From Pseudomonadota bacterium (GTDB taxonomy: Bacteria; Pseudomonadota; Gammaproteobacteria; Burkholderiales; SG8-39): 64,000 nt of DNA. How positions within the stretch are numbered: the first letter of the stretch is position 1; each line of letters opens with the position of its first letter. Position numbers and translations under genes: made by a program. Positions 56,871-62,271 of this stretch are shown piece after piece. The stretch is from assembly GCA_021811085.1 (NCBI GenBank), contig JAJZPQ010000016.1, positions 1 through 64,000 on the forward strand. Direction: 5' to 3'. A model generated the notes under the pieces. The model was not told where the DNA came from. It made no database searches and was given only the letters and a program-made list of their open reading frames with translations.

Positions 56871-58118
56871 CTACGTCCTTGCCTCGCTCAGCGCAATGTC
56901 CGGCTGAATCTCGAATGCGAGTTGCAGCAGCGCCTGACGCAGGCTGGCTTCGACCGCGTCGGCACTGTCGCCATGCGCAAAAATGAAGCCGAGGTAGCTC
57001 GCGCCCGCAGGCGGCGGCGCAATCAGCTGGCCCGGGCTCGCGCTGATCTGGATGTCGCTGATGCCGGCGACCGCCCGTGCGTTGTCGAGTCCGCGTACGC
57101 CGTGAAATATGCCGTGCCGCGGAATCGGGATCATCATCACCCCGCTTGCGGCTTCATGCCTGACTTGCGGCAGCGGCAGCTGCAGCGCCTGGCGCAGGAT
57201 CAGCTCTTCCAGGCTCATGCCGAGCGCGTGGCGCAGCGTCCTGCCGCACAGCCCGCCGATGGAGCGCGCGGCGACTTCCAGCAGCCACACGCCTCGTGCA
57301 TTCACGCGCATTTCGGCATGGATCGGTCCGGTCTCGAGGCCGGCCAGCGTGCAGGCTTGCTGCACCGTGCGCGCAATCGCTTCTTGCTGTTGTTGCGCGA
57401 GACGCGAAGGCGTCAGGTACAGCGTCTCTTCGAAATAAGGTCCATCCAGCGGATCGGGCTTGTCGAACAGCGCCAGCACGCGCAGCTTGCCCTCCTGCAG
57501 CAGGCCCTCGAGCGCGTGTTCGCTGCCGGGAATGAAGCGCTCCACGATCAGGCCCAGTTCGGCCGCATCGCGGTCGGCTTTGGCCTGTATCGCGCGCACC
57601 CAGCGCAGTGCCTGCACGTAATCCTCGCGCGTGTCGGCGCGGATCACGCCGCGACTCGCGCTCAGGCGCCGCGCCTTGACCACCAGCGGAAACGCCAGCG
57701 GCGGCGCTAACCCCGCGCCTGCGGCATCGCCGTCCAGATGCGCGAACTCGGGGCATAGCAGGCTGCCGCGCCGCAGCAGATTGCGAAACGCGAGCTTGTC
57801 GCGCGTCTGCCGCACCGCCTCGGGCGCATTGCCCGGCAGATGGAAGTATTCGCACAACAGCGCCGCCAGATCGAGGCCGCTGTCGTCCACGGCGAGCACC
57901 GCGTCCGGCTTGCGCCCCAGCGCAGGCAGCAGCTGCTTCAGCGCCGCCACCGGCTGGTCGAAAGGCAGGGCTTGGATCGGGCTCATGCCCCAGGCCGGCG
58001 CGAGCTGGTGGCAGTAATTCGCTACGGCGATCACCTCGACCTCCAGTCGCTTTGCCGCCGCGAGAAAATCCTCGTTGCGGTAACTCGCGGCGGGCAGGAG
58101 CAGCAGCAAACGCTTCAT
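56871..58118 (-). CDS. ATP-grasp domain protein
   Basis: This 415-residue ATP-grasp protein has an N-terminal pre-grasp domain (about 1-100), the ATP-binding core with FPLVVKARRLSASRGVIRA near residue 145, VERFIPGSEHALEGLLQEG near 192 and metal-binding acidic/Asn residues in IHAEMRVNARGVWLLEVAARSIGG near 270-290. A C-terminal domain (about 305-415) resembles the LAL_C2-type end of amino-acid ligases. It would ligate a carboxylate to an amine or similar nucleophile with ATP. It starts 10 bases after the radical SAM stop, indicating a common pathway. Confidence 0.85.
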   Translation of the reverse strand: MKRLLLLLPAASYRNEDFLAAAKRLEVEVIAVANYCHQLAPAWGMSPIQALPFDQPVAALKQLLPALGRKPDAVLAVDDSGLDLAALLCEYFHLPGNAPEAVRQTRDKLAFRNLLRRGSLLCPEFAHLDGDAAGAGLAPPLAFPLVVKARRLSASRGVIRADTREDYVQALRWVRAIQAKADRDAAELGLIVERFIPGSEHALEGLLQEGKLRVLALFDKPDPLDGPYFEETLYLTPSRLAQQQQEAIARTVQQACTLAGLETGPIHAEMRVNARGVWLLEVAARSIGGLCGRTLRHALGMSLEELILRQALQLPLPQVRHEAASGVMMIPIPRHGIFHGVRGLDNARAVAGISDIQISASPGQLIAPPPAGASYLGFIFAHGDSADAVEASLRQALLQLAFEIQPDIALSEART

Positions 58119-58128
58119 GGTCGCGGTA

Positions 58129-59592
58129 TCAGAAGCTTTGCAGCTGCTGCTCGGTCGGCTCAGCGCAGCAGTACCAGGGTTCGGACAGATGGGCTATCGG
58201 CTCGCCGAAATCCGCAGGCGCGAGCGGCGGCGGCGCAAGCCCCAGCGCCGCGTGCGCGCGCTGCCAGATCTGGGTAAAGATCTCGCTGCGCGCGAGTCCG
58301 GCTTGCTCGCCCTGCGCCGCCAGCGCCTGCAGCGCCTGCTGCAGGACATCGACGCGCGCATCGGCGTGGCGCCAGGGATAGCCGAGCAATTTTGCATCGA
58401 ACGGGGCCAGCCGTTCGCGAAATCCCGGCAACTGCAGCAGCCAGGAACCCGCCGGCACCAACAGGCGTATGCACAGCTGGATCGGCGGCACGGCTTGCAC
58501 CAGTTTCAGGCGCAACAGGCTGCGCAGCAGCTCGACATAGCCCTCGAGGCTGGTCCAGGGCGTAAACGGCACGAACGTCGGCGCCATGCCTATGCCGGCG
58601 TCGCAGCACAGCTGCAAGGCGCGCTCGAAGTCGGCGCGCGTATGGTTCTTCGCCAGATATTGCAGCACCTGGTCGTCTACCGACTCCACCGCCGCGGTGA
58701 TGAACAGGCAGCCCGCCGCCTTGAGCGCCGGCAGCAAGTCGGCGTGGGCGATGAGATGCTGGATCTTGATCGTGGCGTCGAAGCTCAAATCCGGATACTT
58801 CGCGTGCATGGTCGCGAGCACTTTCATCGCATGCGTCGTACCATTGAAAAAATCCGGATCGCCGAAGGAGATATGCGCGGCCCCGGCCTCGACCTGCTGC
58901 GCGATATCGGCCATCACCACCGCCAGCGGCACCACGCGGAATTTTCCCTGGTACACGGGCACCACCGGGCAATGCCGGCACAAGTGCTTGCAGCCGCGGC
59001 TGGCTTCGATGAAGCCGAGCCGCTTCTTGCCGCCGTCGGGCAGCAGCAGATGGGCGTAGCGCGCAAGTGCAGGCAGGCCGGAGCGGTCCGGCGTCAGAAA
59101 ATCGATCTTGGCCAGATGCCCCACCGGCTCGGATTGCGTCTCGCAGGACTCCCCCGCGCGCAGCCGCTGCGCCAGCCGCAGCAGGCCGGGTTCGCACTCG
59201 CCGCCGAGTATGGTTTTCACGCCCAGGCTGCGCAGCATTTCCTGGTTCATCGGCGCATACAGCCCGTATACGCACAGCTCGGCGCGCGGCGCGAGCGCGC
59301 GTATGCGCGGCAGGGCTTCGACTGCGATGCGCGTGGCGGTGTGCATGCCGACATAAATCGCCACCAGCTGCGCGCCTGCCAGCGCCTGCGCCTCCAGCTG
59401 CTGCAGCGAAAGGTCGAGGCAGCGCACGTCGAAGCCGTCCTGCTTCAGCCACGCAGCGGGTTCGGCCAGCGCGAACGGCTGCCGGCCGAGTTCGTAGGGA
59501 TTGATCAGCACGACCTCGAAGCGCGCGGCATCCGCGCCTCGCCCCTCTTGCCCGGCGCCGTCCTGCAGGCAGCAGTCGCTACGGCTATCCAT
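58129..59592 (-). CDS. CCAEP-tail radical SAM protein
   Basis: This 487-residue protein has an N-terminal cobalamin-binding-like Rossmann domain (about residues 25-145; no DxHxxG cobalamin motif is seen) and a radical SAM core with Cys201-x3-Cys205-x2-Cys208 (RGCKHLCRHCPV) for the 4Fe-4S cluster. Further core segments are HISFGDPDFFNG and AAVESVDDQVLQYL. The tail reads WYCCAEP (Cys475-Cys476), the hallmark of a radical SAM family in which some members have selenocysteine at this position (CUAEP). Here the codons are TGC TGC. Reaction unknown. Confidence 0.85.
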   Translation of the reverse strand: MDSRSDCCLQDGAGQEGRGADAARFEVVLINPYELGRQPFALAEPAAWLKQDGFDVRCLDLSLQQLEAQALAGAQLVAIYVGMHTATRIAVEALPRIRALAPRAELCVYGLYAPMNQEMLRSLGVKTILGGECEPGLLRLAQRLRAGESCETQSEPVGHLAKIDFLTPDRSGLPALARYAHLLLPDGGKKRLGFIEASRGCKHLCRHCPVVPVYQGKFRVVPLAVVMADIAQQVEAGAAHISFGDPDFFNGTTHAMKVLATMHAKYPDLSFDATIKIQHLIAHADLLPALKAAGCLFITAAVESVDDQVLQYLAKNHTRADFERALQLCCDAGIGMAPTFVPFTPWTSLEGYVELLRSLLRLKLVQAVPPIQLCIRLLVPAGSWLLQLPGFRERLAPFDAKLLGYPWRHADARVDVLQQALQALAAQGEQAGLARSEIFTQIWQRAHAALGLAPPPLAPADFGEPIAHLSEPWYCCAEPTEQQLQSF

Positions 59593-59598
59593 GCGCGC

Positions 59599-60009
59599 CT
59601 ATTTCGACTTGGGACGCTGCGCGAACTCGCCGGTCCCGGGCTCGCGGCTGGCGCCCGCCTCCTGCATGCGCTGCAGATAGTGTGCCCACATCGCGTCCTG
59701 GTTCTCGCCCAGGTTATAGAAATAGCTCCAGGAATAAATGCCGCTGTCGTGCCCGTCTGAAAACACCAATTGCACCGCATACGAGCCCACCGGCTCGACG
59801 CCGGTGATTTCGACGTCCTTCTTCCCGATTTGCAGCGTTTCCTGTCCCGGGCCGTGGCCGCGCACCTCGGCCGAGGGCGAGTAGACGCGCAGGAATTCGA
59901 ACGGCAGCGTAAAGCGCTTGCCGTCGGCAAAAGCGATTTCCAGTACGTGCGATTTCTGGTGCAGCTTGATTTCGGTCGGGGCCGGTGCGGTGTCGTCTAA
60001 GCCTGCCAT
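59599..60009 (-). CDS. DUF971-family protein
   Basis: This 136-residue protein matches the DUF971 (gamma-butyrobetaine hydroxylase-like N-terminal) fold: TEIKLHQKSHVLEIAFADGKRFTLPFEFLRVYSPSAEVRGH and SYAVQLVFSDGHDSGIYSWSYFYNLGE. The Zn-binding role is known only for related N-domains. DUF971 genes often neighbour ubiquinone or Fe-S genes in betaproteobacteria. It lies 6 bases before the radical SAM gene and heads that operon. ATG 60009 is the start with a GGAG upstream. Confidence 0.9.
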   Translation of the reverse strand: MAGLDDTAPAPTEIKLHQKSHVLEIAFADGKRFTLPFEFLRVYSPSAEVRGHGPGQETLQIGKKDVEITGVEPVGSYAVQLVFSDGHDSGIYSWSYFYNLGENQDAMWAHYLQRMQEAGASREPGTGEFAQRPKSK

Positions 60010-60124: not shown

Positions 60125-60138
60125 TTGATGTACATCAA
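60125..60138. promoter_or_regulatory. Perfect FNR/Anr-type box
   Basis: TTGAT-GTAC-ATCAA matches the FNR/Anr/Dnr consensus (TTGAT-N4-ATCAA) at every specified base. Centre 60131.5 lies about 137 bases upstream of the methyltransferase ATG. A weak -10 (around 60163-60169) would put the start near 60174, giving a class II activator position of about -42. It also lies 116 bases upstream of the divergent DUF971 start. Confidence 0.7.
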
Positions 60139-60267
60139 AATGCCAATTTGACTTTTGCGCGAACATAGCGTCAAGCAAAAACCCGGCGCGCCTGGCTTGA
60201 TGGGGTCGGCAAAACGCCGCGAAACGGGCAAGCATAAATTGAATCCCCCATCGTTAAGGAAAATGCA

Positions 60268-61059
60268 ATGAATGCGTGGATGATGGACCTTGTCTTTACC
60301 GTTTTCCTGCTCCTGGCATCTACCGGCGTATTTTTCTTCGTGGTTACGCGGGGCGCCCTGGTTTTGCGCGGTCTGTCGCCGGGTTCAGCCAGCGACAAAT
60401 CGCATGTGTACCCGATTTACTCGAACATGCGCCTGATCAAGCTGGTCGATTTCCAGCCCATCATCTCCGCCATCCTGCTGTTCCAGTATCACCACCTGGT
60501 GTCGAAAATCGTTTCCGAACTCAAGCAAATGGACCTCAGAAACAGGAAAGTGCTGATCACTTCCTGCGCGTTCGGCAATGTGATTCCGCGCGTGGTGCAG
60601 GCAGCGCTCGGTTCGGGCGCCGAGCGCGTGCTCATCGCCGACATCATCCAGAACGAACTGGTGCATGCAAAGACCAAGCTGACCGAGTACGCGGGCAGGG
60701 TCGAGTACGTCGAAGACAACGCCACCTCGATGACGCTCAAGCATGACGGCGTCGCCGCCAACGTCATTTTCTTCCTGCTGCACGAACTGCCGCATCACCT
60801 CAAAGGCCAGACCCTGAACGAGGCCGGACGCATGCTCGCCCCGGGCGGCAAGCTGTTCCTGGCCGAATTCCACCGGCCGCAGCTGTGGGTGCTGCGCGCG
60901 CTCAGCTGGACTTACTTCAAGGTGTTCGAGCCGCTGGGCCTCGCGTTGTGGGATACGCACGACCCGCTTGCCTTCCTCGAGAACGCGGGCGGATGGAAGT
61001 GCGAGCGCACCACCTATTTTTTCGGCAATTTCCAGATCATCACCGCGACCAAGCTGTAG
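60268..61059 (+). CDS. RquA-like SAM-dependent methyltransferase family protein
   Basis: This 263-residue protein has an N-terminal membrane helix (about residues 7-27) and a class I methyltransferase-type domain. Motif I is LITSCAFGNVIPRVV near residue 97. Then come LIADIIQNEL, VIFFLLHELPHHLKG (168-180), MLAPGGKLFLAEFHRP and FFGNFQIITATKL at the end. These match RquA, which makes rhodoquinone from ubiquinone for anaerobic fumarate respiration. The membrane helix is unusual for RquA and no rhodoquinone-dependent partner is nearby. A perfect FNR box upstream fits anaerobic use. Confidence 0.6.
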   Translation: MNAWMMDLVFTVFLLLASTGVFFFVVTRGALVLRGLSPGSASDKSHVYPIYSNMRLIKLVDFQPIISAILLFQYHHLVSKIVSELKQMDLRNRKVLITSCAFGNVIPRVVQAALGSGAERVLIADIIQNELVHAKTKLTEYAGRVEYVEDNATSMTLKHDGVAANVIFFLLHELPHHLKGQTLNEAGRMLAPGGKLFLAEFHRPQLWVLRALSWTYFKVFEPLGLALWDTHDPLAFLENAGGWKCERTTYFFGNFQIITATKL

Positions 61060-61119
61060 CGCTCGGCGCGCTGTTGCATGGCGGCAGCGGAAGACTCCTG
61101 CGGGAGCCTTCTTGCTTTT

Positions 61120-62271
61120 TCAGATGCGCAGCCAGCCGCGCTGCGCTGCCTGGTGCGCGAGGATGCCGAACAGCACGGCCGCACCCACATTCCAGATGGC
61201 GAAGGCAGCCGTGGCCAGCACCACGAAACGGTCGGCCTTGTCCGTGCCGCTGTCGCGGCTGCCCAGCGCGAGCTGCAGGCCGGCCAGGAACAGGATCACA
61301 CCGAGGACGTACTGCGGAAAAATCCTGAACAGCGTGACGATGGACGAGGACAAGAACAGCCCGGCGCCAAGCAGGATGCCGCCGAGGATGATGGATGAGC
61401 CGCCGGTGCGCGCGCCGAATTGCACGTGGCCGGCCATGCCGCCCGCGCCATGGCACATGGGTACGCCCCCGATCAGGCTCGCCCCCAGGTTCATCAGGCC
61501 GGTGGAGTAAGCCACCGAACGTTCGCTCACCGGCCGATCGGGAAACAGGCGGTTGTTCTCCTCCGTGATCGCGATGAAGGCATTGCCGAACGTCAAAGGC
61601 AGCTGCGGCAAGGCCAGCAGGATGAATCCCGTCCACAGATCGTTCAGCGTCAGCGACTGCCAGGCCAGCGCCGGAATTCTGAATTCAGGCTTCAGTGCGC
61701 CCAGGTCGCGCATCAGGCCCGGCTGCTCGGCGAGTGCGATCGCCACCCCCAGGGCGAGCAGCACCAGCATCGCCGGCACGCGCGGGCGTCCAAGCAGCAG
61801 CAGCGTCAATGCGAGCAGCAGGCCCGCGAGCCAGGGATTCGCGGCCATCATGTGTATGCCCCCGAGCATGAAGGAAAAGCCCAGACCCATGACCACGCCC
61901 AGCAACGCCGAGCGCGGCACCCAACGTGCGGCCCGCCGGCCCAGGCCAGTCAGCGCGAGGACGATCCACAGCAGGCCCGTCGTCAGCGCCGCGCCGATCA
62001 CCGCCCCCGCGCCCAGGCCCGCCGCGAGCATGCTCTGGCTCACCGCCGCTGCGCCTATGGCCTTCATCGGCTGCACCGGAAACGGCGTGCGGTGTATATA
62101 GCCGGCCACGATCAGCGCCGCACCGAAGGCCACGAGCAGGCCGTTCGCGTCCATGTTCAAGATCGACACGTAGGCGGCGACGAACGGAATCAGCGTTCCC
62201 AGATCGCCGAAAGCCCCGGACCATTCGGGCAGATCGAAGCGGTTCGGCGGGCGCGCGGATTCATGCTGCAT
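61120..62271 (-). CDS. Putative sulfate/molybdate transporter (MOT1 family)
   Basis: This 383-residue membrane protein has about 10-11 helices. Family features are EWSGAFGDLGTLIPF near residue 14, FPVQPMKAIGAAA near 67, LPQLPLTFGNAFIA near 215 and GGVPMCHGAGGMAGHVQFGARTG near 260, all as in MOT1-type molybdate or sulfate transporters. It is transcribed alone, convergent with the methyltransferase and divergent from the acyl-CoA dehydrogenase. ATG 62271 (MQHESARPP) is the most likely start. Confidence 0.87.
   Translation of the reverse strand: MQHESARPPNRFDLPEWSGAFGDLGTLIPFVAAYVSILNMDANGLLVAFGAALIVAGYIHRTPFPVQPMKAIGAAAVSQSMLAAGLGAGAVIGAALTTGLLWIVLALTGLGRRAARWVPRSALLGVVMGLGFSFMLGGIHMMAANPWLAGLLLALTLLLLGRPRVPAMLVLLALGVAIALAEQPGLMRDLGALKPEFRIPALAWQSLTLNDLWTGFILLALPQLPLTFGNAFIAITEENNRLFPDRPVSERSVAYSTGLMNLGASLIGGVPMCHGAGGMAGHVQFGARTGGSSIILGGILLGAGLFLSSSIVTLFRIFPQYVLGVILFLAGLQLALGSRDSGTDKADRFVVLATAAFAIWNVGAAVLFGILAHQAAQRGWLRI

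Follow-up and report, generated by a model that had tools for sequence, protein, structure and literature searches.

A protein family sister to RquA, preceded by an FNR box and linked to fumarate reductase, may supply a low-potential quinone

The window, the whole 64,000-nucleotide stretch of DNA analysed here, carries a gene whose product is not RquA; on sequence evidence, it belongs to a sister family of RquA that has no name so far. The family is separate from RquA and shares its core; the gene stands behind a conserved FNR box in a host that encodes FNR proteins. Relatives are linked to, and co-occur with, both frdABCD and rquA, and in a homologous frd operon the sister gene and rquA are exchanged for one another. 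The explanation that best accounts for these results, to which a probability of about 0.6 is assigned, is that an FNR-controlled RquA-sister enzyme supplies a low-potential quinone to fumarate reductase. The presence of the sister gene in place of rquA beside fumarate reductase suggests a second, undescribed route to a low-oxygen electron carrier. The odds appear roughly even that the family is a second one devoted to bacterial low-potential benzoquinone synthesis, making either rhodoquinone or an undescribed ubiquinone derivative.

The window gene and its product

The gene and its upstream region comprise the following features.

60125..60138, plus strand: FNR-type operator TTGATGTACATCAA, an exact match, centred about 136 bp 5' of the ATG
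60139..60267, plus strand: leader and promoter region, with a weak class II -10-like GAACAT or a TTGATG...GATACT-like pair further downstream
60268..61059, plus strand: RquA-sister gene, an open reading frame with an ATG start, for a class I SAM-enzyme-fold protein of 263 aa
60274..60375, plus strand: N-terminal membrane helix and conserved FFFxxTRGALxxRG, residues about 3-36
60562..60576, plus strand: degenerate SAM motif I, SCAFG, residues 99-103 (ACVYG in RquA), from alignment
60769..60792, plus strand: FFLLHE-L-P core, residues 168-175, common to RquA and missing from UbiE, from alignment
60865..60879, plus strand: EFHRP motif, residues 200-204 (DYHxP in RquA), from alignment

An AlphaFold2 model of the window protein (pLDDT 84.7) showed a confident class I methyltransferase fold together with a membrane helix. 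Structural matches to this model were Coq5, NodS and CmoA-type folds (Z ~19-20), and a PDB search with the protein sequence returned weak methyltransferase matches only. The Pfam domains assigned were Ubie_methyltran and Methyltransf_25. The model helix spans residues 3-36, and the 19-residue Kyte-Doolittle mean is 2.6 from residue 8; conserved residues in this segment are F22, F24, T27, R28, G29, L31 and R34. All 92 relatives examined had an N-terminal hydropathy above 1.6, a value exceeded by no RquA protein among 73, and the helix thus marks a distinct family. The original prediction that the helix sets the protein apart from RquA is borne out, but, given its presence in every relative, it is no oddity of a single copy.

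Downstream, a predicted MOT1-family molybdate transporter gene (61120-62268, minus strand) converges on the RquA-sister gene; a terminator-like hairpin lies between the two, at 61100-61115. On the other side, the minus-strand block at 56871-59592 encodes a radical-SAM protein (487 aa) and, 10 bp on, an ATP-grasp/L-amino-acid-ligase-like protein (415 aa), followed by a nitronate monooxygenase-like gene. This block, possibly a small biosynthetic operon, is also present close to the RquA-sister gene elsewhere in the genus.

A family sister to RquA

The product had been described as RquA-like, and the profile search against RquA proposed with that description was performed. The NCBI RquA model NF038261 was by far the best NCBIfam match, at 111.4 bits against a curated cut-off of 175, whereas the UbiE/MenG model TIGR01934 scored 41.1 bits against a cut-off of 158. 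Full-length relatives scored about 103-122 bits with the RquA model, which all 32 aligned members of the sister family matched. The host genome also encodes a true RquA on another contig (307 bits), which is 28% identical to the window protein.

In a tree of 38 RquA and 22 sister-family rows, the sister family formed one clade (98/94 support) and RquA from all lineages sampled another (95/97), placed as sisters. The node joining them has a support of 73/83, a weak value attributed to the small and long-branched UbiE outgroup, yet the gap in profile scores with respect to UbiE-type proteins is clear. Grouping of the window protein with generic UbiE-type methyltransferases, the alternative outcome raised for such a tree, was not seen; the protein adjoins RquA. 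RquA is therefore its nearest named family, as predicted, but identity with RquA is ruled out by the cut-off, the separate clade and the true rquA in the same genome.

Residues were compared across 82 relatives and 40 RquA sequences, aligned together. Invariant positions shared with RquA are C100, G103, D125, FFLLHE, P175, E185, R188, GG193-194, H202, P204, EP221-222, W228 and Q256. Most of this core is taken to be absent from UbiE, given the general features of that family and the low UbiE scores. Three tyrosines that are invariant in the RquA sampled are replaced in the sister family by F102, F201 and F255, and an aspartate, likewise invariant there, by E200. At the level of motifs, the sister family has YPIYSNM, AFG, EFHxP and FGNFQ, as opposed to YWWAYxHP, VYG, DYHxP and GGLYQ in RquA.

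In R. rubrum RquA, D118 and D143 are the aspartates that contact SAM (PMC9814641). When mapped by their 25-residue spacing, the counterpart of D118 is D125, which is invariant, and that of D143 is N151 in the window protein, a position that is Asn in 84% of the family and Asp in most other members. The Tyr-to-Phe, Asp-to-Glu and N151 switches imply that the chemistry of the sister family may differ from that of RquA. No variation in core residues was found between carriers with and without RquA. An AlphaFold model of the RquA from locus L054 (pLDDT 59.6) was too weak to use.

The sister family is rare. Among 399 genomes of the order with a completeness of at least 90%, the host alone carries it, and the other RquA genomes of this sample all lack it; RquA-range matches occur in 43 of the 399, with 38 over the cut-off. 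A degenerate-pattern scan recovered 80 loci, largely from betaproteobacteria, at 61-92% identity; carriers that can be cultured include Noviherbaspirillum denitrificans TSA40 and Ramlibacter lithotrophicus RBP-1 (loci L064 and L079). No plasmid relatives were found. RquA exceeds the cut-off in 31 of 50 sister-family carriers, as against the 38 of 399 order genomes, and two more carriers have a truncated RquA; in the remaining 17, not even a partial RquA match was found. Most carriers are metagenome-assembled genomes, so RquA may be missing from some because the assembly is incomplete, and binning errors may lie behind some of the taxonomic labels. One genome (G072) has three RquA proteins over the cut-off and two sister-family copies, and two others (G070 and G091) have two sister-family copies each.

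A conserved FNR box

The original prediction had placed a perfect FNR box upstream of the gene, with transcription starting about 42 bases after it. The box is indeed exact and is the sole TTGATN4ATCAA in the 64-kb window; no such site arose in 100 shuffles. Across seven members of the host genus, nearly all box columns are invariant and the surroundings have diverged, making the box the best-kept upstream block. An exact FNR box lies within 350 bp 5' of the gene in 24 of 92 relatives, in several lineages; among 1406 control windows of that length, 5 had one (Fisher p ~4e-26, not corrected for kinship).

The proposed start fared less well, since a sigma-70 scan gave no consensus promoter at that position. 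A weak -10-like sequence (GAACAT/CAACAT) fits a class II position relative to the box. A TTGATG...GATACT pair further downstream is kept in relatives and degenerate in the window; if used, it would put the FNR box near -105.

A gene for a protein with a GBBH-like N-terminal domain (DUF971; 59599-60009, minus strand) is divergent from the RquA-sister gene and shares the intergenic region. The box could in principle serve this gene also, and co-regulation is possible. In Rhodoferax-type loci (e.g. L090), where the neighbour differs and the preceding gene is co-directional, the box stays 5' of the RquA-sister gene, which is thus the likelier FNR target.

In a profile search of the host genome, two proteins scored above the curated FNR cut-off; one of them (on L189) has CxxCx5C plus a further Cys, the cysteine pattern of an oxygen-sensing cluster. 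The host frdABCD has a perfect FNR box of its own (L183:11590), and the host rquA a box matching at 9 of 10 positions (L182:5343). The RquA-sister gene is probably switched on through FNR when oxygen is absent. Signs of FNR control have been reported for the oxygen-independent ubiquinone pathway (PMC11707229); in the open-licence literature, no RquA-like gene was found described as FNR-controlled.

Linkage to fumarate reductase

The tie to anaerobic fumarate reduction put forward in the original prediction is upheld for the family by both co-occurrence and neighbourhood. Of 58 unique carriers, 37 have frdC, compared with 15 of 399 order genomes (Fisher p ~5e-28, not phylogenetically corrected); before the merging of four genomes reached twice, the carrier count was 41 of 62. 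Within the fetched stretches, the RquA-sister gene lies beside frdABCD in seven of 80 loci; the window copy is not frd-linked. Three arrangements were observed: frdABCD followed by the sister gene (L078, L091), the sister gene followed by frdABCD (L056, L059, L066), and the sister gene followed by rquA, facing frd (L051, L054). The identity of the frd neighbours was confirmed with NCBIfam and Pfam in representatives. Apart from frd and rquA in these seven loci, the neighbourhoods of carriers held lineage-specific neighbours only.

The genomes of L056, L059, L066, L078 and L091 have neither an RquA match nor menaquinone genes, and MenD and MqnA/D over the cut-off are absent from all 17 RquA-less carriers and from the host. 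If the product is a low-potential quinone, frd operons in genomes that lack RquA and menaquinone genes would be explained.

The clearest exchange is between two homologous operons. In L184, a multihaem cytochrome gene is followed by frdABCD and rquA; in L078, a Polaromonas operon, the cytochrome gene is followed by frdABCD and the sister gene, which occupies the slot held by rquA in L184. The neighbours are 78-89% identical per gene, and the gap from frdD to the next gene is below 100 bp in both (81 bp in L184). The L184 genome also carries the sister family elsewhere. The first protein of the L184 operon (L184:166-2196), directly 5' of frdABCD-rquA and kept in L078, has eight CxxCH haem motifs and is perhaps a respiratory multihaem cytochrome. 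Given that 12 of 50 carrier genomes have rquA no more than about 4 kb from frdC, the frd neighbourhood is a habit common to RquA and the sister family. In the host, frdABCD (L183:8068-11351, minus strand) is divergent from a gene that resembles malic enzyme by eye, and the two plausibly form a fumarate-respiration unit.

A general rule that frd always needs RquA, the sister family or menaquinone was considered and rejected: searches that included MenD and MqnA/D found none of these in eight of 14 background frd genomes (frdC-bearing G015, G029, G216, G311, G356, G375, G380 and G466). Thus, frd alone does not demand an RquA-type enzyme.

Discussion

In the favoured explanation, low oxygen would lead FNR, bound at the 60125 box, to activate the RquA-sister gene. 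The N-terminal helix would anchor the enzyme at the membrane, where ubiquinone resides. The altered site of the enzyme would bind SAM, and H172, E173 and H202 may coordinate a metal, candidate ligands suggested by the invariance of these residues and by the Mn requirement of RquA (PMC9814641). Ubiquinone would be converted to a low-potential quinone that feeds electrons to FrdABCD for fumarate reduction; this quinone would most likely be rhodoquinone or a similar compound, for example a different amino-quinone or a demethoxy-quinone. From the Tyr-to-Phe switches, chemistry that differs somewhat from that of RquA would be expected; the operon exchange with rquA speaks for a similar outcome. Against this explanation count the small share of frd-linked loci, the unlinked window copy, the eight frd genomes with no such enzyme and the majority of carriers that have both RquA and the sister family, a need for both being unexplained.

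The narrow version of this explanation, that the protein is an isofunctional rhodoquinone synthase, is tentative but the strongest of the specific readings. Here, the protein would be an anchored second isoenzyme that replaces a methoxy group of ubiquinone with an amino group from SAM in a Mn-dependent reaction. It fills the slot of RquA in the homologous frd operon, has the RquA-specific core and occurs with frd where RquA and menaquinone genes are absent. However, the Tyr-to-Phe and Asp-to-Glu changes are invariant, the N-terminal motif is YPIYSNM instead of WWAYxHP, and RquA is already present in most carriers.

In another reading, the protein would make a different low-potential quinone for fumarate reductase, e.g. 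a rhodoquinone isomer or a hydroxy- or demethoxy-ubiquinone. The deep split from RquA, with its consistent active-site switches, and the coexistence with RquA in most carriers favour such a product, but the occupation of the same operon slot by either rquA or the sister gene points to similar products, and this reading is judged rather unlikely. An ordinary methyltransferase with an unrelated substrate, expressed anaerobically by chance, would agree with the Pfam assignments and the common fold; it is improbable in view of the RquA-like degenerate SAM motif I, the RquA-specific core and the three arrangements of frd linkage. Slightly less probable again is a role alongside RquA, as a partner, a tuner or a later step, in which the protein would bind or modify either rhodoquinone or the RquA protein. 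The co-occurrence in 31 of 50 carriers and the adjacency to rquA in L051 and L054 might suggest such a role; against it stand the 17 carriers of 50 without any RquA match, five of which have the sister gene in an frd locus, the absence of the sister family from most RquA genomes and the finding that RquA alone suffices in vitro (PMC9814641).

If the family is indeed a second one for low-potential benzoquinone synthesis, quinone surveys that rely on RquA alone miss producers. To our knowledge, no bacterial enzyme other than RquA is known to synthesize rhodoquinone. In published surveys, RquA is the sole marker from which rhodoquinone is deduced (PMC11707229, PMC13386864). Phylogenetic profiling found no gene co-occurring with rquA, and RquA was described as acting alone (PMC6529003); no candidate quinone gene was noted near rquA, although it is often close to genes for respiratory complexes (PMC5953543). 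In betaproteobacteria, the sister family breaks both patterns. No description of the family was found in the main texts of open-licence papers, and an earlier report elsewhere is possible. A low-potential quinone as product would also provide a natural comparison of Tyr and Phe at three sites for the unusual amino transfer from SAM by RquA. In R. rubrum, the methyltransferase Rru_A2553 is induced anaerobically, and its deletion had no effect on rhodoquinone (PMC6529003). It is probably not an ortholog, judging by its E-value ratio of only ~1e-5 between the two comparison genomes.

Comparison with known systems

TTGATN4ATCAA, the operator of the RquA-sister gene, is also that of anaerobic genes under FNR/Anr control, E. 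coli frdABCD among them. With the UbiE/Coq5/MenG C-methyltransferases, the window protein has in common the fold (Coq5 4obw, Z 19.6) and a weak profile match (41 bits); unlike them, it has no canonical motif I, has the RquA-type FFLLHE and H-x-P, and falls far below their cut-offs. The closest known system is RquA (NF038261), with which it shares the class I SAM-enzyme fold, the degenerate motif I, D125, the FFLLHE-P, H-x-P, EP and LW core and the linkage to frd. It differs from RquA in its identity of 23-32%, its score below the cut-off, its separate clade and its N151 in place of D143; RquA, for its part, is without the N-terminal membrane helix and has YWWAYxHP where the sister family has YPIYSNM.
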